A stretch of DNA of 64,000 nucleotides, from assembly GCA_015501605.1 (NCBI GenBank), contig JADNRZ010000051.1, positions 25,907-89,906 of the forward strand. Direction: 5' to 3'. Origin of the DNA: Panaeolus papilionaceus (taxonomy: Eukaryota > Basidiomycota > Agaricomycetes > Agaricales). The notes beneath the pieces were generated by a model. That model made no database searches. It saw nothing but the letters and a program-made list of their open reading frames with translations, and was not told the origin of the DNA. Shown one piece after another: positions 25,298-62,466 of this stretch. The position numbers and the translations under genes were made by a program. Position 1 is the first letter of the stretch. Each line of letters begins with the position of its first letter.

Positions 25298-26414
25298 TGG
25301 ACGTACTGGGACAAGGGCAAGGAGGATCCAAGTTTTTGATTAATAACCCAGTGTATAACATTACCAACGTGGATCACGGAATTCAGGCGCACCGGAACTC
25401 GTTCTCGTCTGGTGAGTAAGATCGCAATTTCGGCAGACATCAGGCTAAACGGTAGCATATCAGCGTTTGAACGACTGCTCGCTCACATATGTCCCGCTGC
25501 ATTCTATAACTCGGATCAGTTTGACGAGACGAAGTGCCATCCTGAGACACGCAAGGCGTTGCTGCAGATGTTGGAAGATTGGGCGAGAGCGCTTGAGGAG
25601 GACGATAACCCGATTTGCTGGCTTTATGGACCAGGGGGAATAGGAAAGACAGCCGTTGCAAAATCTCTGGGAGATCTCTGCACGAAAGCAGGGACTTTGG
25701 CTGCGTCGTTCTTTTTTTGGAAAACTGATCCTGGTAGGAATGATGCTAATATACACCATGATGCTTCTGGATTCCCCTTTCGAGATGCAGAAGTACAGGT
25801 TCGACTGTTTTTGGTACATTGTGACGCCAGGATTTCCGGTCAACCGTCACATATGGCAATCTAGCATATTGGAGGTGCTCTTTCAGTTGTGGTGCATCGG
25901 TTGGGCATCTCTCCCAGGTTACTCGGATGGGGTTAATTACCTGCGTCGCTGTGGCATAAGCGCAGGAGCACAGGTTCAAATGATTTTAAATGTGTTCGAT
26001 GGTTTAAATGTAAGTCGTATTTCTTTCACTACAATTGTCAATTCTCCCTGATCCTCTAACATTGATATCTTACAGATTAAACCCATGATTAGCTCATTCA
26101 AATCTCTTGTGGAGCCTCTTCTGCTCTCTTACATGGAAGACCCCTGGTTACATAGCCTTCTGATGACTTATCTCTACAGCTCGAGGCCAGACCTTGCAAA
26201 GCTGAACCACTGCAAGTCTATGCGGAGACGCATACAGAAGGCAATCATCTCCCATAGTGACATGCACCGACAGGCGGGAGGAGACGTGCAGAACTGGGAC
26301 TATCTTCAAAAATTTGCGTCCTCCGAATCCTTTCATGAGTTTATGGGTTTCCGGAGGAACATGTCCTTCAAAGATTTGAATTTTTCTCCGATCGAGGATC
26401 TACTATTTTCGTAA
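25298..26414 (+). pseudogene. NACHT-type NTPase (NLR-like), truncated and frame-broken
   Basis: Exon 1 from the ATG at 25298 reads MDVLGQGQGGSKFLINNPVYN, a 52-nt intron follows (25412-25463), then FERLLAHICPAAFYNSDQFDETKCHPETRK and the P-loop WLYGPGGIGKTAVAKSLGDLC, then ASFFFWKTDPGRNDA. This is the usual start of basidiomycete NACHT proteins. Just after RNDA the NACHT frame is lost. The next readable piece, from about 26080 to 26414, starts MISSFKSLVEPLLLSYMED and may be a C-terminal remnant. Walker B, the sensor motifs and the repeat domain are not visible. Whole proteins of this class are several times longer. Confidence 0.7.
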
Positions 26415-35321: not shown

Positions 35322-36728
35322 CTATCTCAATCCAACTAAATAGCCGGCCCCCCGGTGATACACCGCAATCTGACCTGATACCTCATCCAGGGCTAGAAGA
35401 GGCGCAGGGGTAAATAACATCTGAATCGGATTAAGCTCTTCCTCCTCTTCTGCGTTGTCATCTCCACGTCTGCTCTTCTTCCAGTCCATGCGAAGAGTGA
35501 CTGGCGTTATATACCTAGCCTCTTGCACGCCTCCCTCACTCACCAACAGTGCGTCATCTGGCCATGCAAACTCTGCCAGAATGAGCCGGTTTCGCTCACC
35601 AGGGCAGAGCAAAACATGCCGATACGCACAAAATCGCGAGATGGTGTGAAATTCGGCGTATTCGGGCGGAAATCGAGCAATGACCACGACTTGTGGTGAT
35701 TCAAGATTCCCGATCTCGAGTTCCTCGGCTTCAAGACATGCGTCGGGAATGATAATTCCCCACACCCTGTCTGCGTAGTACAGAGTGAACCTGGACGTCT
35801 TTCCAATCCTGATGAGGGGGGGAGCTCGTAATGTCGACGGGCGTTTGACCCATGTTATCAGGTTGGAGGTTGATTCGGAGGAGAGTTGCATCACAGTCAT
35901 GGTCTAGATATGGCTTCTTTGAATAATAGAGCATATGGGAACGCGATACCGCGGCGAACCCTGCGTCATAGTCTGATGTGGAATCTTCTGGGATAACAAT
36001 TGACGTAATCTGGATTGCTTCGAGGCCGGTCGATTCCCAGTCTTTGGATACGACATGTTGTACACGCCATCCTTGAACCACCGCTTTGACGTACGAAATG
36101 TCGCCGTCCTCCAGGATCCTTTCTGTCCATGCAAACACGACGCCCAACATGAACGAAAACCCACTATCGCCCTGTATGGATGCATCATGAAAGGTCATAT
36201 CACCAGTGCAAGTGAATTTGTTTGGGTTGTCTTCCACCTGAGGAGGAATGAGGGTCTGAAAACTGCCGTCCTTGCTGCGCAGGTCGATGTAGACCACGGA
36301 CCAAGCTTGGGTTAACAGCAGAATCCACCTTCCACCTGGTATCATAACCATGTGATGTACCTGTCCTTTGGGTAAAGGCAAAGCTGTTACGTCCGTGAAG
36401 CTTCGGTTGTCAATATGGCGCCATCGGCGAGAGACACGTTGCCAGCGAAGAAAGATTGACTCCAACTGTTCAGTTGTGTACTGCGAAAGGGGTAGTTCGA
36501 ATGCGGATGAGAAGGCGTCCGACTCCTGGTGGTCTTTGAAAATACTAATCCATAAAGTGCGCAGGCCTGTCAGTTGCTTGAACGACTTGGAAACCTTTGC
36601 ATGGCACGGTGCATCAGTGATACTGTAAGATCAGCATAGGGCGCAACACAACGCACTGATCGTAGCCTCAGAATGCTTTGCCAACCCGCATCTAAGAAAA
36701 TCTTTTCTGTGATATCAAGTGACATCAT
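35322..36728 (-). pseudogene. F-box protein, copy B (191-bp deletion)
   Basis: Inverted paralog of the gene at 27009-28634. The start MMSLDITEKIFLDAGWQSILRLRS lies at 36728, and good identity continues to VDITSSPPH. At that point DNA equivalent to about 27933-28123 of copy A is missing (191 bp), which shifts the frame. Identity then resumes as RIGKTSRFTLYYADRVWG to the stop at 35322. The 5' end also differs around the F-box/linker junction, where a splice or a second lesion may exist. Both halves stay open separately, so the damage is recent. Confidence 0.75.
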
Positions 36729-45056: not shown

Positions 45057-45589
45057 TGATGAGTGCACAACAGTGGGAAGTCGAATGAAAAGAACCACAC
45101 AAAATAAAATGAGATGGTAAATGGAACAGAGGTTATGGTGATGGTGCAAGTCAAGTGGTTAGGAGAGGGTGGCTAAAATGGTAGGGAGGGATTCAGGGCG
45201 GTGACGGCGACACTAAGGGACAAATTGGGGTATGTATGAATGCTGGGGCTGACTAAAAAGACCAGAACAGCGGTAGCCGGGACTCGTAATGAACACCAAT
45301 AACTGCGGCTATGTAGCGCAGCTGCAAGATGACTGAAATGATAAAGGAAACTGGACTATATACAGCTGGTGACGCTGGGAGTCTGGGAGACAACGAAATG
45401 TGAAGAAACTTGACCAGACAACAGCTAGTATGACTGCTGAGACGAAAAGAAACAAAGACAAGATTTAGATACGAAATCCGGGGAGCAGAACTGATCTAAT
45501 CTAAACAGAGAGCTAGCGTGCAGTTGATATAGTGTGTCAAGAGAACTGACTATGAAATAAGGAAAGGGAGGTATAATAAAAAAACAAGT
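45057..45589 (+). repeat. Repeat family B, copy 3, cut by the LTR element
   Basis: Starts TGATGAGTGC and follows copies 1 and 2 to the GGAGGTATAATAA block, then stops exactly at the LTR start. The missing final third (about 310 bp) does not resume after the element at 57107. Confidence 0.65.
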
Positions 45590-46594
45590 TGATACGATTG
45601 CTCTAAATCCACCCACAAAAGTGTGGCGAGAACACTAAGTTCGAGTCACACGAGTAACAGGTAGAGTAGAAACAATTGTAATTAGTTCTGGGGAAAATGG
45701 AATACAAACGAGTGTTGGACTACAATAGAACTGAGTGAACTAATATGAAATTAATTTCAAACAGGCGCTAAAGGTCGCGCTAGACTTCTGGTTGGTATTT
45801 CTGAGTTTAATAGGGCGCGGCACGCGCTCTGGCTTCTGACTTCCAAATTAGGACTTCTGATATCACACTAACTTCAATCGCGCACTCCGCACGAAAACTT
45901 CTATTTCTTCTATCCTACGTGTCTGCAACGCGCAAACGGCTTCTGCTTCTTCTTCTTCTTCTGGTTCTTCGATGCTTCTTCGATCCGCAACCCCCCCTCC
46001 TTATATACCTTGTCGCTCCCCCTGTCTCGGGACCATCGGATTAATCTCGGTAGGTCCGGTTTCCATCCCTATCCCATTGTTCTCATGTTTTCCTTCATCG
46101 CTATTGGCAGCTCCACAGCTGCTTATTCATCGTTGTCTCGGCGTCGCGATTTCATTGGGTGTCTCCATGTAGCTTGGTAAGCTTTCGTCTCGGCTTCATT
46201 GGACCCATACAAAGGTGGGTGGGGCTTTTAGTCAGCTTCCCACTGGGCTGATGTCATTTGAAGGTCCAGGTAAGTCTCGTCGCGATTGTCTCTTCTTTAT
46301 TTGGTATTCTACTGATGTGTTGCTTCATGCACGAGCGCTGCATCGTTGCTAGGTGTCGGTCCGCGTCGTCACCAGTCTGAAACGGAGGTGGGCGTGTGAA
46401 AGGGACGCTCGCTCCGTCACATTCCCACCCAATACCTCTGTGTATCCGGATTATTAGACGCGCGACCTTAGGTTAGGTATTTTAGTTTTGTTTCACACCT
46501 GTCAACAAGTCGCAACTCGTATCTTAAATAATACTATTTTATTTTAACTTTTAAATCGCGCGAATTAAGGCCTGGGTACCCGCAAGGGTCATCA
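45590..46594 (-). repeat. 3' LTR (element orientation), 1,005 bp
   Basis: Same length and, by eye, identical to 56102-57106 apart from position 46434. Its terminal bases are TGATAC and GTCATCA. It contains the minus-strand TATA motif GGTATATAAGG near 46010. Confidence 0.95.
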
Positions 46595-46603
46595 TCTCCC
46601 CCC
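46595..46603 (-). other. Polypurine tract
   Basis: On the minus strand, GGGGGGAGA lies immediately before the 3' LTR. It is the usual plus-strand primer of LTR elements. Confidence 0.85.
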
Positions 46604-46737
46604 AACCAAAAATAAGGCTGTCCTCAGCCTTGACCTAAGCGAATGATAGCTCCGATTTGAAAATTTGAATTATGTGCGGGACCCTAAGTCTCGGTTTCCA
46701 ATGCATTCCATAGAGTTCGGTCTGCGCGCTTCATTAC

Positions 46738-46745
46738 TATAAAAA
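46738..46745 (+). promoter_or_regulatory. TATA box of antisense gene 1
   Basis: TATAAAAA lies 49 bp before the ATG at 46787. It sits between the polypurine tract and the gene and points away from the LTR. Confidence 0.55.
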
Positions 46746-46786
46746 GACATGCGCACCCGCCCTCCCATTCCAAACCAAACTGCACA

Positions 46787-47888
46787 ATGTCTTCTCCTCC
46801 TGCTTCTGTTTTCGAACCGCTCGATGTCAACCTGCTCACTTCCTGGCAGCTCATTTCGTTCCGCAAGATAGGGAGCGTTATTGAAGCGTCTCGTGTTCAG
46901 CACTTGCTGAGCATGAGCGCTTACCAGCTGGTAAGTCTCTCTCCCTACTGTTGTATGCCTCTTGGCTTCACCATTTTGTTTCAGCTTTCTCGCAATGACC
47001 CCAATATTGTCTCAGATGCAGTCGCTGGTCGCGCTAAGATTATTTATGCGCTCCTCGATCGACTTCATCTTTTATTCCCTCAACTTCCCCCTCCCACTGT
47101 CATGCATTCTCTCGAATTACTCTGCCTCCCTAATTGTCCCAAAGGTGTGGGTCAGTTTCGTCTCGAGATGACGGAATCGTCCCTCCAAGTCTGTCGTTGG
47201 CTTGGAGGAGATGAATCTCTCGCCACTCGAAGCACTCCGGCTCATACCCCTCCGTTCTACTGGTTGGCTGATGCCAATTTCCTTCGGCTCACCGTGCTAT
47301 GGTCTCATAATCTGGTTCAAGACTTTGTACACGTCCTTACTCCTGCCCTGGTATGTCTTTCGTTTTTGTTTTGTGCTCTCCTCATTGAACACTTTCTTTC
47401 TAGCAACACGAGCTCGAAGCACCCCACAATCGCCGCTCCCACCCTGCTGACTGGAAGTTCGTCGCTACGGGTCTTTCAAAGCTTCGAGGCTGGTTTAAAT
47501 CCAACCATCTTCCTTTGGATCGCGATTTCGAAGCTGTTCAAGCTTCAATTTTATCCAAGATCGCTATGTTTCCCTCTAACAGGTCCAAATCAAACCTCAG
47601 CAACGCTCTGAACGCTCCGGTTCCTCAGGGCGATGCATCATTGGTAAGTTTCACTGCTGTCTTTATCTTCCTATATTTCTCTTATTCACCTAGTCATCGC
47701 TTCCTTCAGCCGCTCCCATCGTGGTACGAACTGTCCAACGAAGCAGCACGATCCAACACCACCACTACACTCCCAACAACAAACCAAACCGCTCCCTTAA
47801 CTCGTCGTCACGATCAAGCTCAAGGGCGAGCTCGTGCTCGTCTCGAATGTCAACAACCCCTTGTCTCCGGCGCCGACTGACACTATGA
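46787..47888 (+). CDS. Antisense gene 1 of the retrotransposon, unknown function
   Basis: Not recognised. Four exons, 46787-46930, 46985-47350, 47404-47643 and 47694-47888, give 314 aa. The introns are 54, 53 and 50 nt, each GTAAGT/GTATGT to CAG/TAG and each in phase 0. The N-terminal two thirds look globular and helical (LTSWQLISFRKIGSVIEASRVQHLL, NFLRLTVLWSHNLVQDFVHVL). The last exon is Ser/Arg-rich (SSSRSSSRASSCSSRMS), like an RS tail. No protease, envelope or nucleic-acid-binding motif is seen. It lies between pol and the 3' LTR on the strand opposite to gag-pol, with its own TATA box. Because the genomic RNA is transcribed from the other strand, these introns are not removed during retrotransposition. 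Confidence 0.8.
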
Positions 47889-48023
47889 CTCCACATCTCA
47901 ATTTTCGGACTTATTTCTTTGTGTTATTCCATGTAGCTACTTCGTCTTAGTCCCTAGGATGACGTGTACCCTAGCGTAGCTCCAATAGTACAAGTTATTT
48001 CGTTCGAAATCATCTCTGTGAGG

Positions 48024-48031
48024 TATAAATA
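48024..48031 (+). promoter_or_regulatory. TATA box of antisense gene 2
   Basis: TATAAATA lies 78-85 bp before the ATG at 48109, in the 220-bp gap after antisense gene 1. Confidence 0.6.
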
Positions 48032-48108
48032 CCCCTGCTTGCACCCTCATAACGCTTCATCATCTCGCATTGTGAATTTCCCTCAATATTTCGAACCTCC
48101 CGTCCCCT

Positions 48109-49358
48109 ATGTCCTCTCCATCCCTTCCTGCTGACCTCCCTACCATCGCTGATGTCAAGGTCTTCATGTCCAAGGCATATGTCGATCGGAAGAGTGGTAA
48201 ACTTCCTACCACCCCCTTTTCCACGCGCTTTGTATGGTTGAACTCTGCCGCTGAGTTAGCGGTGAGTTTCTCTTTTCTTTATTTTTGTCTCTATTAATTT
48301 CTGATGGATATTTTATCGTTCAGTTACTCTGGCGTCCCTACGTTGATTCGCTCTGGTCCGATAAAGAGAAAGTGGATGCAATCTTTGCTATCCGCGATCT
48401 CTACTACGACCTGGAGTCCGAATTTAACCATGGGCCACACCATCAAGGCACCGATTTCAAGTTCCCCAAGGTTTATCACGCAATCGCCGAGTTTACCAAG
48501 GCGATTCACCTTCAGCGCGAGGCTGCTAAGGCTACCGATTCGTCCACCACGTCCAATTCCAATTCCTCTTCCTCTCCAGCTACCAATCCTGCCACTGATT
48601 TTAATGTCTCGATTCCAACCGAGCCTGCGGCTGACCGTCACAGTGTAAGCATAGTTCTCCTTCCTGTCACAATTGCATTCTAATATTGTTTATTCTCTTC
48701 TAGGCTACTCGTCGCACCAAGGGCTCTCGTACCAAGACCCCGAAATACGTTCCAGAGGGTGCAGACGACTCTGATGTTGATATCAACATCCCTAAGGCTG
48801 TTTCCACCATTTCCGTTACGCCTAAGGACCCCCAGGTTACTATTACTCAGGACAACGACGTTGTCATGTCAGATGCCAGTGGAGCAACTGAGTCCACCAC
48901 TCCTTCGAACGATTCCGCTTCCACTGCACCTGCTTCATCCTCTAGCTCCAAAGGTCATCGCTCTAGCAGTAACCCTGGCTCTGCTGTCCTTTCTGGTTCG
49001 TCTCGCAGCTCTTTGGTAAGTCTAGTATTTATTTCCACTTAATCCAGACTAACTCATTTGAATGTCCAGACCAAATCTATCGCTTCATCTAGTCCAGCCA
49101 AACCGGAGGTATGTTTTCTTTCCTATACCGAGGTTCCTGGCTTGGACTTAACATCTGCCTTCTTTCCTCAAGTTCAAATCACTCCCCTCCTTCCGTTCTT
49201 CGTCGCTCGGCAAGAGGACTCGTCTCGACGATTCCTCTTCTCTGGGTGCTCGTAACGCCGTCGCTGATCTCGAGGCTGAGATCAAATACTTCGATGTCCG
49301 CATTGAAGTCTTGACTCGCACTCGTGATCATCTTCGTGCGCTTATTGACGCCCTTTAA
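48109..49358 (+). CDS. Antisense gene 2 of the retrotransposon, unknown function
   Basis: Not recognised. Five exons, 48109-48261, 48324-48644, 48704-49015, 49070-49108 and 49173-49358, give 336 aa. All four introns (54-64 nt) are phase 0 with good GT..AG ends. The N-terminal domain is helical (VKVFMSKAYVDRKSGKL, LLWRPYVDSLWSDKEKVDAIF). The middle is Ser/Thr-rich and disordered, with a basic patch (ATRRTKGSRTKTPKY). The C terminus has KRTR, then a coiled coil (AVADLEAEIKYFDVRIEVL). The basic patches suggest nuclear targeting, as inference. It starts MSSPS, like gene 1's MSSPP. Its 3' end converges on the pol stop, 105 bp away. Confidence 0.8.
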
Positions 49359-49463
49359 TCATTTTTCTTTCATACTTCGTAGCTCTAGTAGTTATAGGGT
49401 AGAGTAGTATACACCCCTTTGTGTACCCTCTCCCCCCAACCAATAAATCTCGACCGTCCTCGG

Positions 49464-52400
49464 TCAGTTTTCTTCATTCTCCTCTGTGTGAATCTCGACA
49501 TTCCTTCCATCAAAGATAAAATCTTCGTTAGGGTCTCTCTCGACATCATATAACTTAGTCAATTTCTTTAATTCTTCCAAACTGATATCCATGAATTCTT
49601 CTAAGTCTGGAGGTAAGTCTATTTTTCGTCGCGCTACATAAGGTACAACCCTAAATGCAGCCACGCGATTCTGCCAGACTGAGCCATCCAGTTCTGCAAC
49701 AATGTAAGCTCCCCCCTCGAGCCTTGCCAATACAACCATCGGTCCAAGGTATCTCCCTTTCATTTTTCTGTCCAGAGATCCCTCGATACTCGTATCTCGA
49801 ACCATCACCAAGTCTCCTTTCTTAAACTTATAATTTTTAATTCTGTGCTTATTTTTAGCTTCATACTCCTCCAGCTCTCTATGCTTGCGCTCATCCACAC
49901 GCGCTATCATTTCATCCACATGCGCTTTGTGTTTTGCAAGTGCACGCGCTCGATATCCAACCAATTCCGCTGTTGTCACGGTTCGGTCTGGCAGCTTCAC
50001 TAACCAGGTTGCCTCAACAAGGTCTAACGGTAACACTGGGTGCGCTCCAGTTACCAAAAAGTAAGGTGAGCATCCAGTGCCCTTCTTAACTGTCACTCTG
50101 TCCGACCACAGCACATGATTGAGGAACCAGTACCATTTCGAAACATCACCCCCTGTCGCTTTATAGAGCATTTGTCGAATGTCCCAATGTGGGCGTTCGA
50201 TCTTGCCATTCGCTTTCGAGTTATAAGGTGAGATTCGAATGTATTTGATCCCGTATTTCTGCGCTAACCATGCCAGCGCAGCTCTGAATGGTGTTCCATT
50301 GTCTGTCACTATCTCTCTAATAGAACCCCAACGACACAGTAAGTCTTCAAAGATAAAGTTAGCGATTGACTTAGCGGTCTCGCGCCTCAGTGCTCTCGCT
50401 TCTGGCCATGAAGACAATGAGTCTCTGGCATGTACAATGTACTTGCAACCATTGGATAGTGGTGACATGTGCATTGTGTCTATGTGCACCCTCTGGAAGA
50501 GCGACGGCGTATGAGTTAAGGTAGGTGGAATAGCTATCATTTCTTTCTGTCGCTCTTGACATATGTGACAGCTTTTCACATACCAGCTCACATCGCGCTC
50601 AAACTCAGGCCACCAAAATCGCTCTCCGATCAATGTTTTCGTCGCGTAAAAGCCTCTATGTCCTAGTGCGTCGTGTGCGCTACTAAGTACCCACATCCTC
50701 TTTGACTTTTCAACCACTAACTTGTGTTTATCATCTACAGATCGTCGATACAATCTGCTGTCATTATCCAAGAAGAACGCTCCTGCAGAGCGCTTGAAGT
50801 TAAGTGTCTCTTTATATGACAATCCTTCAATCTCTGGTGTTGGATTTGCTAACCATGTTTTTATCTTTGGTAGCTTATCATCTTGCAGTCGCGCTGTTAC
50901 AGTGCGATGTTCCTCTGGGTAAGTCACTTCATTTGCTTTCGAGACGTCCATCTCGATACTTTTAATCGAGTTGGATAACACTAATACTCGCTCTCGAATG
51001 GTTTTCTTGACCTTTCGGTGCTCCTTCTTTGCTGCTGCTTGCCACAGCACCAACTCCTCCTCAGCCTGTCGCTTTGCACGACTCAAATCCTCTTTAAATT
51101 CTTCAACACTCCTTGCACACCCTTCCCCAGCTTTCGCTACAAGGTATCCACCCCTTGTATCAATATTTATCTTGAAATCTTCGAAATCCAGTGGATCTGG
51201 ATCCGTTTCGAACTTCTTGGTGAGTACAGGTGGGCCTAATGGCTCTTCATCTGCCTCGTCCTCCCTTCTTACTCGCTCTACAGGATCTTCATCACTTGGG
51301 CTTCGTCGCGACAGTCCATCTGCGGCGAAGGTTTTCCCTTTTACATGTCTTAATTCAAATTGAAACATTAAAATGGTATCAATCCATCTGTTTATTGTCG
51401 CATTTGGACCAAGTCCCGCATTCTTAAGCATTCCAAAGATGTAAGAAGCATCAGTCTCAACAATTAACTTCCGGCATCCCTTCAACCAATGTTCACAAGC
51501 GTTCAACGCTGTCATAAGTCCAAATAGCTCCCGCTTTGGCTGCGAGAATCGTGTTTCGCGTTCTTCCAAAGGTATGGAACCAAAACGGGCATATCTCTTT
51601 CCATTTGGTGCGGTTGGGTCTTCTTGGTAGATATAATACCCAACTGCTATGTAAGATGTGTCAACTGCTAGTACCACTGCGCCATCTGCCTCATAATCTA
51701 TAGGTCTTAGGCATACAGTATGGTCCAGAGCAGCCTTAATATCATCCATACACTTCTGCTCATCCTCTCCCCACTGCCAAGGTGTGTTCGCTTTTAATAA
51801 GTGTTGCAACACTTCAATTTTAGCCCCATAATTAGGGATGTATGGCCGTAGCGCGACCATCGTACCCATAAATGACCTTAAGTCTGTTACGCTTTCACAT
51901 GGTTTCCAATTTTTGAGAGACCATAGGGCATCAGGCGACGCTTTGCGTCCCTCATAAGTGCACAAATGTCCTACTACCGTAATTTCTTCTGCACAGAGGA
52001 TTGACTTGTGACCTGAGAACGTCCCTCCACAGTACTTCATCCTCTGTACTATCCTCGCTACATTCTGGAAATGTTCCCACACAAATCTTCGTATTCCTGG
52101 ATTCTCAGGAAGCGTCTCATACCCTCCATCTGGTAGTTCATATCTAGTTTTAGGTCCTCGAATAGGGACATCATCAATATATGGAATTGTGTAATCTGGA
52201 ATTTCGTCCTGTAGGATATAAGTCACATCGTCATGAAAGATCGGGACTGAGTTTGTCCATCCCATTGGTAGCGTGGTTAATCTCAGCGCTCCGAATGGAG
52301 TCTGGAACGCTGTCATGTCTCGCGACGATTCATCCAACTTGCGCTCATCATATCCTACATACAAGTCTAAAATTCCGCCACATGCTCTTCCTGCGAAGTT

Positions 52401-53297
52401 CTCTGCAAGTGTCTCGGTTGCTGGTGGTAAGCCTGAATGTGCAATCGTAACCTTATTTAGAGGTTCGAGACTATGCACTATTCGATGCTTTCCATTTTTC
52501 TTTAACACCACAAACCAACGACTTCGATAGGATGAGTTGGTTGGTTCGTAAACTCCGGCTTTTATTTTTGTCATAATAATATCACAGATTTCTCGATACA
52601 ACCCTGGCGGGATGGGTATGTTCTTCATCACCCAGGGCTTATGTTCAACTACCGGTGCTTTCACAGGTGGGAAGAAGTCCTCCCTAAAATGTCCTCGTTC
52701 GCTATCCTCCCAAGCAAACGCTTTGCTATTCTTCATCATGAACTCATGTAGCAATTTTCGTTCTTCAGGCCACAGGAAGTCTCCCTTGTGTGCCTTATCC
52801 ATCTCTTCCATTCTCTCCTGTGTATAGCGACCAGTTGGTTTAAAATCCCCCGGAGTTTTACTCAACGGTGGCATTTCGGCTAACGGGTCGCCTCTAATGT
52901 CTCGAATAATTCTAAATTCCGGAGGTAAGTCACGGAATTGAGGTCGAACCTTCAGTGCTACGGGTTTATACTTCCCAAATTGACTTCTCACAGGTTGCCT
53001 CCCTACCACATACTTCCCCATTACACTTCGCTTTGCCTCCTTTTCTGAAGGTTGGTTCAATCCTTCATATTTCTGGTTAAGGTAAGCATCAAGTCGCTTC
53101 TGGGCTGTGTTATCCATGACCTGCATCATTGCTACAAGCTCCAGGTAAGCGTCGCGCTTGTCTTTCTTATTGAAACAATTCATTCCAGCATCGGGTAATC
53201 GATACCCAAGCAATTGCAATCCCTCTCCATCCCACTCAACTGCCAACGCGACCTCTCCCTGCCTCTCTATCAGCTCATTGAGGTCTTCGGAAAAGAA
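49464..53297 (-). CDS. pol: Pol: reverse transcriptase, RNase H, integrase
   Basis: Open frame from 53297 to 49464, with no ATG near its start, so it is expected to be made by a -1 shift from the protease frame. Residues are counted from 53246. RT has KKNGKHRIVHSLEPLN, LDLYVGYDE and the catalytic YIDD (about 356-359). RNase H has AVDTS (D529), KREL, ETDAS (D599) and AADGLSRR (D643). Integrase has an HHCC finger (H858, H863, C893, C896) and a DDE core: D923 in HIDT, D982 in TDNG and E1017 in KANGKIERPH. A GPY/F-like segment follows (GRYLGPMVVLARL). About 1,277 codons in total. It ends 105 bp from the convergent antisense gene 2. No disabling lesion is seen. Confidence 0.93.
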   Translation of the reverse strand, partial: FFSEDLNELIERQGEVALAVEWDGEGLQLLGYRLPDAGMNCFNKKDKRDAYLELVAMMQVMDNTAQKRLDAYLNQKYEGLNQPSEKEAKRSVMGKYVVGRQPVRSQFGKYKPVALKVRPQFRDLPPEFRIIRDIRGDPLAEMPPLSKTPGDFKPTGRYTQERMEEMDKAHKGDFLWPEERKLLHEFMMKNSKAFAWEDSERGHFREDFFPPVKAPVVEHKPWVMKNIPIPPGLYREICDIIMTKIKAGVYEPTNSSYRSRWFVVLKKNGKHRIVHSLEPLNKVTIAHSGLPPATETLAENFAGRACGGILDLYVGYDERKLDESSRDMTAFQTPFGALRLTTLPMGWTNSVPIFHDDVTYILQDEIPDYTIPYIDDVPIRGPKTRYELPDGGYETLPENPGIRRFVWEHFQNVARIVQRMKYCGGTFSGHKSILCAEEITVVGHLCTYEGRKASPDALWSLKNWKPCESVTDLRSFMGTMVALRPYIPNYGAKIEVLQHLLKANTPWQWGEDEQKCMDDIKAALDHTVCLRPIDYEADGAVVLAVDTSYIAVGYYIYQEDPTAPNGKRYARFGSIPLEERETRFSQPKRELFGLMTALNACEHWLKGCRKLIVETDASYIFGMLKNAGLGPNATINRWIDTILMFQFELRHVKGKTFAADGLSRRSPSDEDPVERVRREDEADEEPLGPPVLTKKFETDPDPLDFEDFKINIDTRGGYLVAKAGEGCARSVEEFKEDLSRAKRQAEEELVLWQAAAKKEHRKVKKTIRERVLVLSNSIKSIEMDVSKANEVTYPEEHRTVTARLQDDKLPKIKTWLANPTPEIEGLSYKETLNFKRSAGAFFLDNDSRLYRRSVDDKHKLVVEKSKRMWVLSSAHDALGHRGFYATKTLIGERFWWPEFERDVSWYVKSCHICQERQKEMIAIPPTLTHTPSLFQRVHIDTMHMSPLSNGCKYIVHARDSLSSWPEARALRRETAKSIANFIFEDLLCRWGSIREIVTDNGTPFRAALAWLAQKYGIKYIRISPYNSKANGKIERPHWDIRQMLYKATGGDVSKWYWFLNHVLWSDRVTVKKGTGCSPYFLVTGAHPVLPLDLVEATWLVKLPDRTVTTAELVGYRARALAKHKAHVDEMIARVDERKHRELEEYEAKNKHRIKNYKFKKGDLVMVRDTSIEGSLDRKMKGRYLGPMVVLARLEGGAYIVAELDGSVWQNRVAAFRVVPYVARRKIDLPPDLEEFMDISLEELKKLTKLYDVERDPNEDFIFDGRNVEIHTEENEEN

Positions 53298-54292
53298 TCA
53301 TTCTCGATTTCAGGTGGGCGAGTACCTCTTTCATAAGTAGGTACTGTACATCTCTCGCCTGAGTTTGGGTCTGTAATAGTAATTATTTGAGCACCGTTGG
53401 TGCTATTCAACACTTCACTTGCAGTCAATACATCAAATGGTCGCCCAAGTAGGATACGGTAGGCTGGATCTCGCATAATATGCACCTGTAGGTAGACTTC
53501 AATGTTACCTATTTTAAATGGCACATTTCTGGCGAGACCAAGTGTACTTTCCACTTGTTTATTTGCGCTCTGCATCTGAATTCGAATGTCTGGATTCCAA
53601 GTTATTCCCAATGATTGCGCGATGCGACAATCCATTGAAATTATTTGTGATCCACTATCCAATAAGGCTTCTTCTGAGCGACTTCGATTGACAATTGGGT
53701 AGATAGCTCGAAGCCCGTGGGATTCTCGAGCCACAAACACCTTCCGTTTTGCCTCTTCAGGGTCTAAGTCCTCCAAATATTGAAGCACTGGGTCGCCTAC
53801 TATAAGTGACCCCTTCTGCATCCCTTCTGTCTCTTGTGTGAGAATTGTCACTGTCGGTGCAGGTAAATCGTCCACCTGTACCAAGTTGCATTCCAACATC
53901 TCCAATTGTCTCAGTTTTTCTTCACCCTCTTTCACATTCTGTCGAGTTCGAGTTATAGCTTTCTTTAGTAATTCACGCGCTGGTGCACATGTACTTAAAA
54001 GCTCTCGTGTGGTTAATGTAAATGGTGACTCCAGCAATTTCTCAACCACTTTACTTGCTAACCCTTCCTCTTCGATCTCTGCTCTATTTCGGTATGATCT
54101 CTCTCGTTGTCTTGCTTCGAAATCCTCTCGTGTCTCGATTCGAGGCTGGATCTCCGAGAGATCGGCATAAGGTAAATTATTTTTCTCTTTAGATTTTTCT
54201 TGAATTTCAGTAGGCGACTCTTTATTTGAGTTCTCCGGGAGCTGCGCCTTGGTACGTGTACCCGCTCCCTTCCTCGAACTTACCGGAAACCC
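53270..54292 (-). CDS. pro: Retroviral-type aspartic protease frame
   Basis: Lies in the -1 frame relative to gag. The frame opens at 54301, 22 nt before the gag stop, and is uninterrupted to TGA at 53270. The N-terminal part is charged and helical (EIQPRIETREDFEARQRERS). The protease follows: LLDSGSQIISM with the catalytic DSG, a flap region, and YRILLGRPFDVL, the conserved ILLGRP-type C-terminal motif. It overlaps pol by 28 nt. The product is probably Gag-Pro by frameshift at GGGTTTC (54286-54292). A spliced route is an alternative, because the gag end also reads G/GTAAGT. Confidence 0.85.
   Translation of the reverse strand, partial: GFPVSSRKGAGTRTKAQLPENSNKESPTEIQEKSKEKNNLPYADLSEIQPRIETREDFEARQRERSYRNRAEIEEEGLASKVVEKLLESPFTLTTRELLSTCAPARELLKKAITRTRQNVKEGEEKLRQLEMLECNLVQVDDLPAPTVTILTQETEGMQKGSLIVGDPVLQYLEDLDPEEAKRKVFVARESHGLRAIYPIVNRSRSEEALLDSGSQIISMDCRIAQSLGITWNPDIRIQMQSANKQVESTLGLARNVPFKIGNIEVYLQVHIMRDPAYRILLGRPFDVLTASEVLNSTNGAQIITITDPNSGERCTVPTYERGTRPPEIENDSFPKTSMS
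53291..53294 (-). other. Candidate second -1 shift site (TTTT)
   Basis: The pol frame is closed by TGA at 53298-53300, and the pro frame ends at 53270, so any shift must fall within 28 nt. The only slippery-looking sequence there is TCT TTT CC, where a Phe tRNA on TTT can re-pair one base back. This is not a canonical heptamer. Confidence 0.4.
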
Positions 54293-55779
54293 TGTTGATT
54301 TTCAGGGTACTGTTTATTTCTGGTGTTCACCAGTGTCGAATGTGTACTATTAGCTCCCACATCAGCTCCACCTTCACGCGCATACCTCTCAATCACCTCA
54401 TCGCGCTGATCACGAAGTTTATTGGTGTAAATTGACATACGCGGAGGCTCGGGATCTGGGGTAATAGGTACATATTCTCCTGTCTCATCAACTTCAAAAT
54501 AATTTGTCTCCCTATTTTTGTGCCAGTCGTCCACTTTTTCTTTCATTGACTTGTCTTCAGGGAACCGAGGAATCGGACTCCCATCAGGTAAGCGTGTCTT
54601 TCCATTTTCAATAATAATTCTATTATTATCGCGATCACCCAGACGGAAGGGACACTCTTGGAACAAGTGGTCCTTGCGTCTGCAATAATAACATGCCCCA
54701 GCTTCGCGTTCATTCACAGGTGGGTTTCTCGGTCGGTTGAAGTTGGAGTTCCCAAAGCGCGATCCATTAAATGAGTTAGAGGCAGGGGCGTATGGCCGCG
54801 GGTTCGAGTTCTGAACTCCACCCTGACCCTGACTCATACTCTGGAACTGCATACGGGTCTCCTGCATCAACCTTTCGAACATTTCCATCTGCCTTTGCTC
54901 GCTCTGTCTCTGCATGTCTTCTAGTTTATTAATATACAATTTAAAGTCACTCAGCCCCTCAATTTTGATTGACTGAGTATCATTTCTACCTCCTGTAATA
55001 TTTAAGTTCATATTTGAGTCTCCCACGTCACTCGAAGGTGACGCATCAGTTAACTTCTGCGCATGTTGAATCACTCGCGCTATAGTGTATTTCTCTTCGT
55101 TTGACCATTCTGGCTCCTCTGGAATGGCTGTCTTATTAAATCTTGCCAGCGCGACTTCAGCATAGTGTGCGGTTGTCAAATCGTTATCAATACTGCTCTT
55201 GATGCGCTCCACAAACTCGCGTGAGAGCGCTCTGAAGAACATCTCAACAAGTTCGCGTTCAGAGGTAATTCCCTTCCCCACAGCCTGTCGCGCTTCAAGC
55301 TTCTTCACTTCTCCACGGAAAATGCGCACTAACTCATGCACTTCATCAGAATGGTGAGTTGTCAAATTTTTATATTTTCGCGCCGCCTCATCAAGACGAC
55401 GCAAACTTCCTTTTTCAACTTCTCGAGCTTTTGGATAGCTCTTTATCAATTCTTTCTTAAACTTATCCCAGTCACCTGTCCCATATGAAGGTAAGGCTTT
55501 CCACTGGTCTTCTGTCTCCCTATCTGTGTATCTGACTATCTTCTTCATCTTATCTCGTGCATCCGTAATACTAAAATCTGTAAATAATTCTTCCATTTCC
55601 ATAATGAACCGTGTCAATTCCACGGGTTCATCTTTATCAAATCTCGGTGCATTATTATCTTGAGGACTTGGGAATCGCGCTCGCGACCCTATTTGATTAC
55701 TAGTTACAGTCGCGTTTGTAATGGGTGCTCCTGGAGGAGTGCCACTACTCGTTCCTGCTCCTGTTCCTCCGTTTGTCAT
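54280..55779 (-). CDS. gag: Gag polyprotein with zinc knuckle
   Basis: 499 aa from the ATG at 55779. A Gly/Ser/Thr-rich start is followed by a helical capsid-like region (RFIMEMEELFTDF through FFRALSREFVERIKSSID, about residues 50-200) typical of Ty3/Gypsy Gag. A coiled-coil-like segment (INKLEDMQRQSEQRQMEMFERL) and a Gly/Asn/Arg-rich linker follow. A CCHC zinc knuckle CYYCRRKDHLFQEC lies at about 363-376 (C363, C366, H371, C376). The C terminus overlaps the protease frame, and the slippery heptamer lies just before the TAA at 54280. Confidence 0.93.
   Translation of the reverse strand: MTNGGTGAGTSSGTPPGAPITNATVTSNQIGSRARFPSPQDNNAPRFDKDEPVELTRFIMEMEELFTDFSITDARDKMKKIVRYTDRETEDQWKALPSYGTGDWDKFKKELIKSYPKAREVEKGSLRRLDEAARKYKNLTTHHSDEVHELVRIFRGEVKKLEARQAVGKGITSERELVEMFFRALSREFVERIKSSIDNDLTTAHYAEVALARFNKTAIPEEPEWSNEEKYTIARVIQHAQKLTDASPSSDVGDSNMNLNITGGRNDTQSIKIEGLSDFKLYINKLEDMQRQSEQRQMEMFERLMQETRMQFQSMSQGQGGVQNSNPRPYAPASNSFNGSRFGNSNFNRPRNPPVNEREAGACYYCRRKDHLFQECPFRLGDRDNNRIIIENGKTRLPDGSPIPRFPEDKSMKEKVDDWHKNRETNYFEVDETGEYVPITPDPEPPRMSIYTNKLRDQRDEVIERYAREGGADVGANSTHSTLVNTRNKQYPENQQGFR
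54286..54292 (-). other. Probable -1 ribosomal frameshift heptamer GGGTTTC
   Basis: In the gag frame the codons read CAG GGT TTC CGG TAA, giving the X XXY YYZ pattern G GGT TTC two codons before the stop. Slipping back one base enters the open protease frame. The window in which a shift can work is only 22 nt (54280-54301), and the heptamer lies inside it. Confidence 0.7.
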
Positions 55780-56080
55780 ATCTTCGGTAAGTGTTTGGCT
55801 CCTTGTTCTGCTTGCACTCGCTACTGACTTCGTTCTCCTGTAACTTGGTTCCTTCTCAAGTCCCGGCTCTACTCCGGCTTGTATCGAACGCTTGCTTTTT
55901 CTTGGTGGTATCTCGAAAGGTGAGTCCTCTTCTGACTCGTCTTCTTCTAAACTATGGTAATCAACTTCTGTTTCAAGGGTGAGATTGGCAAGTAAATTGC
56001 TGATCTCGTCTTCTGTATCTGAATAACAAGGTATGTTTGCTCAATTCTAGAGAGCTTGCTGCTCGTTTCTAATCAATTTC

Positions 56081-56099
56081 CCCCTCGCGGTGGGCTCCA
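56081..56099 (-). other. Primer binding site (tRNA 3' end complement)
   Basis: Two bases inside the 5' LTR the minus strand reads TGGAGCCCACCGCGAGGGG. Its complement ends GGGCTCCA, i.e. with a tRNA-like CCA end. I cannot name the tRNA. Confidence 0.7.
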
Positions 56100-56101
56100 G
56101 A

Positions 56102-57106
56102 TGATACGATTGCTCTAAATCCACCCACAAAAGTGTGGCGAGAACACTAAGTTCGAGTCACACGAGTAACAGGTAGAGTAGAAACAATTGTAATTAGTTC
56201 TGGGGAAAATGGAATACAAACGAGTGTTGGACTACAATAGAACTGAGTGAACTAATATGAAATTAATTTCAAACAGGCGCTAAAGGTCGCGCTAGACTTC
56301 TGGTTGGTATTTCTGAGTTTAATAGGGCGCGGCACGCGCTCTGGCTTCTGACTTCCAAATTAGGACTTCTGATATCACACTAACTTCAATCGCGCACTCC
56401 GCACGAAAACTTCTATTTCTTCTATCCTACGTGTCTGCAACGCGCAAACGGCTTCTGCTTCTTCTTCTTCTTCTGGTTCTTCGATGCTTCTTCGATCCGC
56501 AACCCCCCCTCCTTATATACCTTGTCGCTCCCCCTGTCTCGGGACCATCGGATTAATCTCGGTAGGTCCGGTTTCCATCCCTATCCCATTGTTCTCATGT
56601 TTTCCTTCATCGCTATTGGCAGCTCCACAGCTGCTTATTCATCGTTGTCTCGGCGTCGCGATTTCATTGGGTGTCTCCATGTAGCTTGGTAAGCTTTCGT
56701 CTCGGCTTCATTGGACCCATACAAAGGTGGGTGGGGCTTTTAGTCAGCTTCCCACTGGGCTGATGTCATTTGAAGGTCCAGGTAAGTCTCGTCGCGATTG
56801 TCTCTTCTTTATTTGGTATTCTACTGATGTGTTGCTTCATGCACGAGCGCTGCATCGTTGCTAGGTGTCGGTCCGCGTCGTCACCAGTCTGAAACGGAGG
56901 TGGGCGTGTGAAAGGGACGCTCGCTCCGTCACATTCCCACCCAATGCCTCTGTGTATCCGGATTATTAGACGCGCGACCTTAGGTTAGGTATTTTAGTTT
57001 TGTTTCACACCTGTCAACAAGTCGCAACTCGTATCTTAAATAATACTATTTTATTTTAACTTTTAAATCGCGCGAATTAAGGCCTGGGTACCCGCAAGGG
57101 TCATCA
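56102..57106 (-). repeat. 5' LTR (element orientation), 1,005 bp
   Basis: Pair of 45590-46594. The minus-strand TATA motif (GGTATATAAGG, about 56512-56522) would drive the genomic RNA. Confidence 0.95.
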
Positions 57107-59589
57107 GAGGAGTGAAACAGCACGAACGAAGGTAGACTGAACTCTATCGAAATGAACGGAAATGAACGAGTGCCGGGGGGTATGTTAACATTTGAGCTTT
57201 GAGGATTGAGATGTAACTTTGTGTGCGTATCAGCCTTCGGTCATCAGAGCGTAGCAATCATTCGACGAGATTGCTGTATATTTATTTTAAACTCATCCGG
57301 GTAGATAGCTGTTATCTACGAAGTTATCGAGGCATTAAAACTATAGCTCCGACGTATGTTCAAAGTTTCTCAGATCCATGTCAAGCGAAAGGGCGGAGGG
57401 CGCAATACACTACGAGCACCGAACGGGAGCAATTCCCCGAACAGGATGACAGTCATTATCAACATTATACGTCAAACCTCGACGTCAACATCATTGCTTA
57501 TCAGAGTCATCGTCGGATCAAACCCTTCGATTGCCTCGGGGCGGAGGCTCTAGCGCTTCCCTCTAAGCTTTAGTCTACATTCCTGACTCAACATTCTTCT
57601 TCTCAGGTGGGTGGATGTCGCCCGTCTCGCGTCGGCTACAGCTGGATAGCTTGTAACATGTAAACGTTTAGCATTCGGCGGCTTATCGAGCGCACTAAAT
57701 CGGCGCATGTTGGATAGTTGACCAGAGGATGACACTTTGCCGTCATCCAGAATTTCATTTTGGAAGTTTCGGCTCGCTAGATAGCGTTTTGATAACAATA
57801 AGCATGAGCTGCGCTCGCTGTGCATACACTACAAAGAAAGGGACCAGGGTTCGAGCGTTGAGATAGTGGGGATGGGTATCAGTGAAACCTATGCATTCAT
57901 GAAGAGATAAGGAGAAGGAGGTAGCGAACATTCAATGCCCGGTCGGGAAAACGTTTGAAGTCCGACCACAGCACCTCGATGCTGCATGACATCGTCGAAG
58001 CATCCAGATCAGCACTAGCGTCGAACACCAGAAGGCGAAACAATCAAGTTCCGTAGCATGGTTGACATGGCACTCTAGGTGCCCTGACTGGTGCCGAACA
58101 GGATCATCCAGGCCCTCAATCTGCCCTGGTCTACCCTGATATGTATTATGTATAAACCAGCTATCACGCTCTCACCCCTCACCACTGCGTCACTCACGTG
58201 CGCGCGTTATGAGAAAACATTGCGGCTCAAGTGGCATGGTCTTTCGATATTCAAGAACCGGCGCAGCGAGGCGAGGGTTAAATGTGCCATGGTCAACTTT
58301 GAGAATAAATCTCTCATGGGGGCACTAAGTAAAGAAAGGTAATTATATAGAAACCCCACTCTATGTGCGAGAGAAGCAGCAGTAGCATTGGAAGTAAAAT
58401 AGGGGTCGCGTACCGGCGGCTTTAAGTCACAACACGAGCTCGTAAGCTTTTGTTGTTTAAGTCAATTGGAATCTAGGAATCATCGCAATGAATGCCATCT
58501 GTGGCAGTGTTACACTTGGGTTATGGGCGAATTGATTAGCTTTCGACTTTTCGAATCCAGAGGGGACTGGTCATCCCCATTCGATGTTTATTGATTCGTG
58601 GGTATCCATAAATGAACACACATCGGCATCACATTGAGAAAAATTTGGCGTTTCAGCATATATGGTAAGTTATCACCCAGAGCAGGAAGCAATTGAGTTT
58701 GGTTTTTTCTTTTTTGCAAAATCGAACAGCGGTCTGATAGCGCGGAGGTCTTGGAAATTCCTTGGTATGCAGCCGTAAGTCACCACATATTAATTCAGCA
58801 ACATAATGCGAAGCAAGTGCGACGAACTTGGCTCATGGGGCCCAAGTACGACAATCTTGACGATTGAGGTAAGAAATGCCTGTAAAAGAATCACCAAGAG
58901 CCACCAAGAGCACTGGGGAGGAGGAGCAAGGCTCGGTGAGGTGATTTTGAGGCTTGGGACAGACCCCAGACACCAGGCTGAAAGAAAAATGATAGAACGG
59001 CACACGAAACCCGAAGCCCCATCACCAGGTACATGAGGCACGTAATGACTGCCCTGCATGACCTTGAGGGTGCTAAATATATAAAGCGTTTCTTACAAGG
59101 CGTTCTGTTGACTAAAAACGAGAAAAGAGGCGTAGCTCTGAATAAAACGGATTAGCTTTTGTATGCAAGTTGAATTTAAAATGAAGATATCTTGCTGCGT
59201 TGGCCGAGCACCTTGGAGCCATGGCATCAAAGAAGTTGAGCTTGGCAAGGAGGTGAGGCAAGGGAGGAGCTTTGAATATTCGCACGTGCAGCCCTGTACA
59301 TGACGGATTTATTTATGTTCGCAGGGGTGGTCACCGATAGGCCAGTTATTATAAAAACATTTATCATCGCCACATCGGCTCTCCATGCGATACATTTCTC
59401 CACCCGTCTCCCAACACTCATCACAAAATCCCTCATTCCTCGACACCCCCCGCCCATCCCTCACTGCGCCAATATCGCCGTTCGTGACTGAAACCCTAGA
59501 CAGGCCTCGGTGAGACTCTTTGAGATGACATCGTTTTGGCCGGTGAGTCCTGTTCTCAAAATATCCTCGGAGAGGGTAAAGTTTCTAAA
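57107..59589. other. Intergenic, nothing recognised
   Basis: About 2.5 kb between the retrotransposon and the antiporter gene. Only short shadow frames are present. The interrupted family B repeat does not resume here. No RNA gene is seen. Confidence 0.45.
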
Positions 59590-62466
59590 ATGCTTGTACA
59601 GTTTGAAATCACCACTCCTCATGTTATCTATGCATTACTCGGCGGATTCATCGTTCTGGTGAGTAATACCAATCGAAGTTTTTCGTTACTTTCCCATCAA
59701 TTGACGCTCTGGTGCTTAGTTTGGCATGTTTTCTCTCTTGCTGAGAGAAAGGGTACGTTTGCAATAGTATTGACGCTTCGGTATTGACCCTGTGTCTAGT
59801 TATACATTGGCGAGGCAATTTGGGCGTTCGTATTCGGGATTATCATCGGTATGTTTCCAAATTTCGTCATGCTTCCTTCTCTCATCGTTCGGACAAACGC
59901 TTAGGACCATATGGCGCGAATGTCTTCAATCCTCGGTCATGGGGCGGCGATGGCGACGAATCCACAAATGTCATCACTCTCGAATTTACGCGTGTCGTGT
60001 TGGCTATTGGGGTGTTTGCGATAGGTGTCGAGTTACCAAAGGCGTACATGGCGAGACATTGGAAAAGCCTATTCTTTTTGCTGGTACCGGTTATGACTTG
60101 GGTATGTGTCCTATGCACGTTTATCGGCGTTTAAACCCCAGATCTATGTTGTTCAAAACTCTAATCGTCACCGCTATATTTAGGGTTGGTTTGTCTCGGC
60201 TGCATTCATTTATGCTTTGATACCTGGCCTCAACTTCCTCTCGAGCCTCGCCGTCGCTGCATGCCTAACACCTACCGATCCCATTCTCGCCGCAGCCGTC
60301 GTCGGTGGTAAATGGGCAGACAAGCATGTTCCAAGCCATATTCGACATCTCCTGGCAGCCGAGAGCGGGTGTAACGACGGCGCCGCTTTCCCCTTTCTCT
60401 TCCTCGCCCTATACCTTATGATCGATTCCCCCAACGTCGGGTCAGCAGTTAGAGACTGGTTTCTCCTTCTGTGGCTATGTAAGTGGATAATAATCATTCT
60501 CTTCCCCCTTCGAACGCCGGCTTACCATCATCCCGTGCAGACCAAGTCATCATGGGTGCTGTCATCGGCTGCGTTCTAGGATTCGGCTTCAGGCATCTTA
60601 TGAAATACTGCGAAAAGCACGATCTAATCGACAGGCATTCCTACGTCGCGCAATACGTTTCGTTGGCCATCCTCACTATTGGCGTTTGCACTCTTCTAGG
60701 GTCGGATGACCTTCTCGCTGCGTTCTTCTGCGGAACGGCGTTTGCATGGGATGGGTTCTTTAACAGGCAAACGGAAGAGAGCGTGTTTAGTAGCGTTATC
60801 GACACGCTGTTCAATGTGGCTGCGTTCATCTTTGTCGGAGCATGGATGCCTTTCAACAAGTTTCAGGATGAAGCGCTAACCTTAAGCGTGTGGCGCCTCG
60901 TCGTGATTGCTATCCTGGTTCTCATCTTCCGCCGCCTTCCTATCATCATGGCACTTTACAAATGGATCCCTGATATTAAGACATTCCGCGAGGCTCTGTT
61001 CAGTGGACACTTTGGACCTATTGGTATCGGCGCTGTTTTCATCTCCACCCTCGCTATCGAAGTCTTGCACCGGGCACACAAGGAAGGCGACCATCAAATC
61101 GAGATTCTAATGGAAACCATTCAGCCTATCGTCGCATTTATGGTCTTGACCTCCATTCTCGTTCACGGTCTATCTGTTCCGTCATTCAGCCTGGGCCGCA
61201 GAGTGCACTCGGTTTCACGGACATGGTCGAGACGAGACACAATGACCAGTAATACACCTGAATGGGCTAATCAAGCCCGGATCGTACGTCGCGGAGAAGA
61301 TATCGTTATTAATAGGGATCAGCCGGATCTTGAGCGTGGACGCGTCGAATTCGAGAAGACGACGACTGAGGTCAGTATCCCGGAGACGGAGTTGAACGAG
61401 AAGCGACAGGACTCGGAAATTAGTGAAGACACCAGGGTCGACAGTGCGGCTACGACTCCACCTCAGCTTCACCAGATTCGTAGGGAGGAGTCTCCTGGTC
61501 GTGAGGAACCCAGGAAGAGACATTTGACGAGTGGATAGAGGGCGATAAGAGGGTGACTGAACGTACGGTGGGCCATGGATCGGATGTGAGTATTCACTTT
61601 CCTCTGTGTTGTTCCGAGCTGCGGATATTAATTTAATTTCGCAATTTATAGCCCGAGGTAGAAGTGTTCGACGTACCTGATGCGGGCCAAGGATCATGGT
61701 CCGGCGCGGTTCATGACCTTGGACGAAATGCCCTACACCATATCCCGAGTATCGGGCAAAGCAGTAGGAACGGGACCGCACCACCCACACGAACAAACTC
61801 GTCTGAGAAGATGAAAGCTCCCGAGAGACCAGGACCAGTACCCATTCTTGACTCGGCCGTTGCGACTGATGATGAAGAAGGGTGGTCATCAGAGGGCAAC
61901 GATGAGCCCGAGGAAGCTAACGCCGTCGCGTCATCATCATCACCTCGTCCCGCGATGCATCGTCGCCGACCAGCTTGGAATCTTCATCTCGCCGCAAGGG
62001 GTTCCGACACGCGAAACGGGCGGTACACGCTGTTGGCAATCATTGGAATAGACGAAGAGGGTCGACGTCTGCGTCTGCGAGGAGGGGCTCGTTGAGTCAA
62101 GCTGAGCTTGGTGCTGCTCCTGCTGTCGTTGATATTGATGAGCCGAGAGGAAGAGAAGGAAGACCACCGCAGGTCATTTCAAATGACTACTATAGCAGCC
62201 CGAGGTCTCAGAATTCCGGATCTTCGTATATCAATGGTCGTCCGACTACGGCTGGCTCATCATCAATGACTGCTGTTAGTAGAGCATCAAGACCGGGCAC
62301 TGCGGATAGTTCGTTGAGGCACCAGCGGCTGGATAGTATCCGCGCTATGCAAACGACGAGAGAAAATTCGCCTTCGCGATCTGTCAGATTCGTAGAGAGG
62401 ACGATGAGCAGCGGGAGTGTAGGAAACGGGGGAACTTCATCACCTAGGACGACTGCCGCCGACTAA
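59590..62466 (+). CDS. Na+/H+ (K+/H+) antiporter, NHA1/Sod2 type
   Basis: Plasma-membrane cation/proton antiporter of the CPA1 fungal group. Exons: 59590-59658, 59720-59752, 59800-59848, 59905-60101, 60184-60478 and 60541 onward, with consistent phases. About 12 hydrophobic segments are expected. Landmarks are GPYGANVFNPRSW, LEFTRVVLAIGVFAIGVELP, LTPTDPILAAAVVGG (TDP at 147-149) and AAESGCNDGAAFPF, whose Asn180-Asp181 pair is the ion-binding site in this family. The membrane part ends near SVPSFSLGRR (about 61195). The frame in use then stops at 61538, but a hydrophilic tail typical of the family continues in another frame (TFDEWIEGDKRVTERTVGHGSD, a 66-nt intron at 61586-61651, PEVEVFDVPDA). 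It changes frame again near 61950 and reaches 62466. The exact tail structure is unresolved. Confidence 0.85.

Follow-up and report, generated by a model that had tools for sequence, protein, structure and literature searches.

Two intron-bearing antisense genes recur between pol and the 3' LTR in a Ty3/Gypsy lineage of Panaeolus

Antisense open reading frames between pol and the 3' LTR (aORF-3R) are listed for several plant LTR retrotransposons, among them Grande (gene23), RIRE2, Retand and PvRetro13 (PMC7264820, PMC11963269). Maize Grande gene23 is reported to be transcribed from its own promoter and to be nuclear, and antisense genes of LTR retrotransposons are described as having unknown functions (PMC7264820). 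The Ty3/Gypsy element Boty of Botrytis cinerea is credited with an antisense gene, brtn, in the same interval, attributed to Zhao et al. 2011 (PMC7264820, PMC8365987, PMC4227169). Since antisense genes at this place are known from plants and from Boty, their kind is not new, and with the Boty gene listed in PMC7264820 a view of antisense genes as undescribed in fungal elements is not supported. For a fungal element with two spliced antisense genes, a weak negative can be given: no description was found in fungal and basidiomycete literature, with subscription journals mostly outside coverage. The available text of a survey of fungal LTR elements (PMC3248453) uses the words 'antisense' and 'intron' 0 times.

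The window, the whole 64-kb stretch of Panaeolus papilionaceus DNA analysed here, contains a minus-strand Ty3/Gypsy element spanning 57106 to 45590 (Table 1), denoted C47 or W. Its two LTRs have TG...CA ends and differ by 1 mismatch over 1005 bp, which points to a recent insertion. By Pfam, protease, RT, RNase H and, last, integrase follow the Ty3 order. Integrase is represented by Integrase_H2C2 alone, with no Pfam match to the catalytic core at E 0.001. Neither the gag-position ORF nor a search of the element for a chromodomain gave a Pfam match. The flanks of the C47 copy differ, leaving no target-site duplication; recombination between copies could be the cause. At the 3' end, the polypurine tract directly adjoins the LTR. 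The complement of the putative primer binding site, CCCCTCGCGGTGGGCT, occurs at 35 genomic sites, many of them upstream of related elements. ARAGORN reported no tRNA gene bearing it in three sites examined, two of which look un-tRNA-like by eye, and Rfam gave no match over 45500-57200 at gathering score.

Table 1. Features of the element and its antisense cassette (window coordinates)
Feature	Position	Strand	Remarks
3' LTR	45590..46594	-	TGATACG...TCATCA, 1005 bp; also seen as direct repeat
LTR-proximal polypurine tract	46595..46609	-	TTGGTTGGGGGGAGA
LTR-proximal hairpin	46614..46631	-	NGGA loop
TATA-like box, gene 1	46738..46744	+	49 nt upstream of ATG
Antisense gene 1	46787..47880	+	306 aa; exons 46787-46930, 46985-47350, 47404-47643, 47710-47880 (incl. 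stop)
TATA-like box, gene 2	48024..48031	+	85 nt upstream of ATG
Antisense gene 2	48109..49358	+	336 aa; exons 48109-48261, 48324-48644, 48704-49015, 49070-49108, 49173-49358 (incl. stop)
Gene 2 intron 4, exitron-like	49109..49172	+	encodes LSYTEVPGLDL, coding in relatives
Pol-proximal polypurine tract	49426..49443	-	TTGGTTGGGGGGAGAGGG
Pol-proximal hairpin	49450..49467	-	NGGA loop; pol stop codon 49464-49466 inside
pol ORF	49464..53246	-	RVT_1 (below cutoff), RNase H, Integrase_H2C2
Protease ORF	53270..54049	-	Pfam gag-asp_proteas
gag-position ORF	54280..55779	-	499 aa; CCHC-like YYCRRKDHLFQECP by eye
Putative primer binding site	56082..56099	-	TGG start, two bases inside 5' LTR
5' LTR	56102..57106	-	1005 bp

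Elsewhere in the window, Pfam identified genes or exons for a Na/H exchanger (60483-61538, plus strand), a fatty acid desaturase (3085-3927, minus), an F-box-like protein (19541-20605, minus) and an NPHP3_N NTPase (25412-25864, plus). Inspection of the ORF list by eye also revealed similar coding stretches in opposite orientation at 27009-28634 (plus) and 35322-36465 (minus), and a second such pair at 21605-22354 (plus) and 33487-34329 (minus). These two inverted pairs are perhaps a local inverted duplication. No Pfam match was obtained for 27009-28631, 21605-22351 or 33490-34329.

Pol and the 3' LTR are separated by a cassette of 2.8 kb. As the initial annotation had proposed, it holds two multi-exon genes antisense to gag-pol, both with GT-AG introns that keep the frame (three in gene 1 and four in gene 2). 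The sizes first given, 314 and 336 aa, held in part: the frame is kept and gene 2 reaches 336 aa with intron 4 removed, but gene 1 comes to 306 aa because its third intron, judged from sequence, most likely ends at 47709 rather than 47693. With acceptor 47709 the protein is as long as P0001, deposited for P. papilionaceus, and has a C-terminal tail in common with P0002, P0003 and P0005 of P. cyanescens; the tail of the 314-aa model matches none of these homologues. The earlier statement that neither protein has a known domain agrees with our searches, in which Pfam matched neither the longest gene 1 ORF nor, apart from one sub-threshold match at 0.1, five deposited homologues of both genes. 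A PDB sequence search with the antisense proteins returned nothing up to E 1. The structure model of P0001 (gene 1) is helical with a mean pLDDT of 54.6 and drew no Foldseek match at an E value of 0.001 or below, and that of P0006 (P. cyanescens gene 2; pLDDT 48.6) has a disordered middle followed by a long C-terminal helix.

Sequence searches returned 12 loci carrying one or both antisense genes in the 50.85-Mb P. papilionaceus genome, instead of the one-off insertion matching a single host locus that the initial annotation had considered. These are six near copies with the cassette (C47, C23, C9, C14, C12 and C46), a 73% remnant (C37) and five divergent or degenerate relatives. Single-protein searches added C56 and C21 through gene 1 and C67 through gene 2. 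In reverse, C56 gene 1 recovered the six near copies, and C56 gene 2 found C56 and C21 alone. Profiles built without C56 and searched against 919 ORFs from eight loci gave E values for genes 1 and 2, respectively, of 3.4e-17 and 6.6e-5 in C56, 1.7e-10 and 1.4e-3 in C21, and 9.6e-4 and 1.6e-16 in C67. C52 is a weak case (gene 1 E 3e-4 with a profile including C56, 0.05 without it), further supported by the exitron motif described below and by collinear weak matches. C23b was assigned on gene 2 evidence alone, namely the C-terminal part of the protein (E 2.3e-5) and the same motif.

The antisense genes run opposite to the pol of their own locus in 11 of the 12 loci; the contig carrying C9 stops short of pol. 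C67 has a truncated pol about 1.7 kb from the antisense genes, and in C46 the two are separated by other sequence that includes another pol. None of the best candidates scored in the P. papilionaceus genome placed the antisense genes outside elements. In P. cyanescens, homologues of the two genes are neighbours by locus number (010886/010885 and 010995/010994), each pair on equally long contigs (9581 and 9546, respectively). Protein searches covering 5.8 billion proteins matched P. papilionaceus and P. cyanescens and found no homologue outside Panaeolus.

Carrier elements were placed by a FastTree phylogeny of RT-RNaseH with 22 rows (W and 21 loci), with stops coded as X. W, C12, C14, C67, C56, C21, C52 and C23b formed a clade, with support 1.000 for its separation from the remaining 14 rows, although the midpoint rooting makes gain in one clade indistinguishable from loss in the other. 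Outside the carrier clade, C70, C46b and C5b showed no antisense genes over 4.2-4.5 kb (best profile E 0.97). In C15, C34 and C14d, with about 0.9 kb examined, pol and the apparent LTR start seem too close together to accommodate a cassette. This tally leaves out C8, where the examined stretch ends before a recognisable LTR, and omits C5a, C46a, C11, C25, C14c, C21b and C56b. Beyond the 3' end of C70 we observed, by eye, Copia-like gag-pol and integrase ORFs, a cluster of retroelements.

Splice sites were conserved throughout the near copies, with GT..AG in 41/41 intron instances present; the 42nd is not in the aligned part of C46, a copy with an interrupted gene 2. None of the six was intronless. 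This fits the idea that introns would persist through copying since the genomic RNA is of the opposite strand. Introns 1 and 2 of gene 1 and intron 1 of gene 2 fall at the same aligned place in C56, and intron 1 of gene 2 does so in C67 as well (by eye). Intron 2 of gene 2 lies elsewhere in the C56 model, whose third donor, GTTCGT, is weak. In 9/9 upstream regions a TATA-like box was seen no more than about 90 nt from the start codon (both genes of W, C56, C21 and C52, and gene 2 of C67), a count made by eye without a background rate and, for C52 and C67, from start codons of our own choice. In gene 1 of C56 and C21 the box is TATTTATAG, unlike TATAWA. The earlier claim that the genes have their own promoters is matched by TATA-like boxes upstream of both, which would be candidate promoters on the strength of their sequence.

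The five-exon structure first proposed for gene 2 stands as an open model, but its last intron is coding in relatives and therefore exitron-like. Our automatic splice enumeration, restricted to CAG/TAG acceptors, did not list the 336-aa model, which is open with an AAG acceptor at 49172 and has a C-terminal end like that of P0006. The donor of the intron is good, and a branch-like CTTAAC is present. It measures 64 nt in C47, so that in the window copy its removal alone keeps the frame. It is 63 nt long in C23, C14 and C12, reading through in frame in C12, and 62 nt long in C9. Among the P. cyanescens proteins the segment is present in P0008 and P0009 and absent from P0006, P0007 and P0010. The pattern L[PS]Y.{2,4}[LIV]P.[LI]D, defined after the relatives had been inspected, matched once each in C56, C21, C52, C23b and C67 and once in the whole window. 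Every match was on the antisense strand in the pol-near part of gene 2, and C70, C46b and C5b had none.

The frame of gene 1 is undisturbed in 6/6 near copies, with a frame change in the divergent relative C21; gene 2 is undisturbed in three of the six (C47, C14 and C12). Nei-Gojobori counts were made over 15 pairs of near copies, which are non-independent because the copies are mosaics. Gene 1 gave dN/dS of 0.21-0.25 in 12 pairs, the three others lacking synonymous change. For gene 2, the undisturbed copies gave 0.19, 0.23 and 0.16, and the 12 pairs involving C9, C23 or C46 gave 0.17-1.20, the maximum reflecting 2 synonymous and 7 non-synonymous changes in a pair with the frame-disturbed C9. 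Between C56 and C21, dN/dS was 0.11 for gene 2 and, for gene 1, 0.03 in exon 1 and 0.15 in exon 3. Third codon positions took 50/90 exon differences between the window copy and C12 (p = 1.2e-5). The neutral decay of the frames between copies that the initial annotation had considered was accordingly not found (0.21-0.25 for gene 1, 0.16-0.23 for undisturbed gene 2). Pol compared with C12 gave 0.026 (dS 0.189, dN 0.005). The antisense values are several times that of pol; both antisense proteins therefore look selected, less strictly than pol.

The cassette is flanked by two hairpin and polypurine-tract modules, one just after pol and the other beside the 3' LTR. A loose detector found 14 modules in the 3' regions of 11/13 elements, with none in C23b and C67, and a stricter one found 13 in 3' regions against 0 in 51.5 kb of flank on both strands. 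Five of the seven hairpin pairs change on both sides among ten distinct 18-mers. The covariation score was 0.54; shuffling gave 0.23 and sliding no more than 0.15. The inner four pairs are required by the detector itself, which leaves the outer three as the unbiased ones. Both module copies are present in W, C52 and C46b, and a second tract after pol was seen by eye in C70 and C5b. As C46b, C70 and C5b are doubled without a cassette, the doublet is independent of it. The second, internal tract could serve as a start of plus-strand synthesis. The second module of C34 runs off the end of the examined stretch, and in C14e, which is outside the tree, neither module nor LTR was recognised in 0.9 kb. 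C8 has a seeming extra sense-strand ORF of roughly 200 aa (about 100-740) after a stop in the pol frame; it ends in the only module seen in C8, with its own stop codon inside the hairpin.

Near copies are also mosaic in sequence. C14 is 99.7% identical to the window copy in pol (from 49511) and 92.6% identical in the cassette and 3' LTR. It lacks 49386-49510, which includes the pol-proximal module, and the joint of the divergent block lies there. C9 shows 0 exon differences from the window copy in gene 1 and divergence beyond it, and C23 and C12 are mosaic too (compared over window positions 45400-53300). Either template switching between RNAs or gene conversion would produce such mosaics.

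Mostly on grounds of anatomy and selection, we consider it quite likely that the cassette is a resident accessory module of one Panaeolus Ty3/Gypsy lineage, encoding regulators that act on the element from their own promoters. The observations behind this reading are the anatomy, recurrence, splice-site conservation, TATA-like boxes, protein-level selection and the absence of a match outside elements. Because related elements carry them too and selection has kept them, the two genes are better seen as accessory genes than as stray sequence; their place in related elements and purifying selection bear out the initial assignment of the genes to the element. Host RNA polymerase II would transcribe each gene in integrated copies from its own TATA promoter, opposite to gag-pol, and the host would splice the mRNAs to give two unrelated proteins. 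The genomic RNA would start in the 5' LTR on the opposite strand, where the introns would go unrecognised and survive reverse transcription. Both proteins would be small regulatory factors with the element itself as their target; by analogy with Grande gene23, the nucleus is a plausible site of action. We infer all of these steps, from transcription, splicing and translation to role and site of action. With no domain or fold recognised, the regulator role is without homology support, and it counts against the accessory-gene reading that related elements replicate, or did, without the two genes. A fuller picture is possible, if somewhat doubtful as a whole: a two-gene, intron-bearing antisense module with LTR-independent expression and a gene 2 exitron giving two protein forms, held between hairpin-polypurine-tract modules and block-swapped between element lineages during reverse transcription.

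Alternatively, the antisense transcripts might themselves be active, base-pairing with the genomic RNA in its 3' part so as to restrict or silence the element, with coding secondary. Both genes do lie wholly opposite the genomic RNA, and regulation of this sort is discussed for comparable elements (PMC7264820), but amino-acid-level selection in both would be unexpected if RNA alone mattered. We regard this as unlikely; RNA may act additionally. The introns and TATA-like boxes resemble those of ordinary host genes, as they would if one or both genes had been captured, from the host or from a different element, and were carried as cargo with a function of host origin. With no match outside elements among the best candidates scored in the genome, and none outside Panaeolus among 5.8 billion proteins, capture appears quite improbable. 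A recent host capture was rejected on the genome result, and the captured host function suggested in the initial annotation is unsupported; an old capture may have diverged past recognition. Copy-number control and interference with sense RNA, the other roles suggested there, are candidate functions.

The position of the cassette between two module copies, and the divergence of the C14 cassette and 3' LTR as a block jointed at the pol-proximal module, would suit proteins serving reverse transcription, for instance by binding the modules at the cassette ends. Yet C46b has both modules without a cassette, so the module is independent of the antisense proteins, and we give this idea little credence. 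It is scarcely credible that the frames arose by chance in untranslated sequence: the lack of a known domain would fit, but dN/dS lies well below 1 in two independent copy sets, third positions are in excess (p = 1.2e-5), and homology extends to divergent elements and a second species. An env remnant was rejected: the genes run the wrong way for env, and 19-residue hydropathy peaks at 1.0 in gene 1 and 0.7 in gene 2. Derivation of gene 1 from gag, or kinship with gene 2, was rejected as well, profile searches giving no match to either.

These two selected, spliced-looking antisense genes form a tractable set for the study of function, in a mushroom that offers several near-identical copies, relatives at graded distances and a sister group lacking the genes. 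If they prove to be expressed, the element would be an example of a retroelement carrying intron-bearing genes without intron loss.

The aORF-3R elements have the same place and orientation of their antisense genes as the Panaeolus element, with function unknown in both, but their hosts are plants and the host here is a fungus. Occurrence in most members of a family, a further trait of this class, is seen here too: besides C37, the genes are in six near copies and five divergent or degenerate relatives. Several antisense ORFs are possible in the plant elements, and the Panaeolus cassette has two (PMC7264820, PMC11963269). Where Grande gene23 is described with its own upstream promoter, the Panaeolus genes have TATA-like boxes as putative counterparts. 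The word 'intron' occurs 0 times in the main texts of PMC7264820 and PMC11963269; the Panaeolus genes have three and four introns. The TRP28 domain (PF04195) of Retand proteins was not among the Pfam matches of five homologues up to E 1. One antisense gene is named for Boty against two here, and Boty-like elements are stated to carry a chromodomain (PMC4227169), whereas none was found in the Panaeolus element. Protein searches with the Panaeolus proteins matched Panaeolus alone, a result that would bear on homology to BRTN if the BRTN sequence is in the database.

Beyond LTR retrotransposons, the mRNA of HBZ of HTLV-1, an animal retrovirus, is spliced. HBZ, for which no homology is claimed, is an antisense accessory gene encoding a nuclear protein (PMC11963269) and has its antisense placement in common with the Panaeolus genes. 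It is a single gene, with its promoter placed inside the 3' LTR (PMC7264820), whereas the Panaeolus element has two genes, each with an internal TATA-like box.
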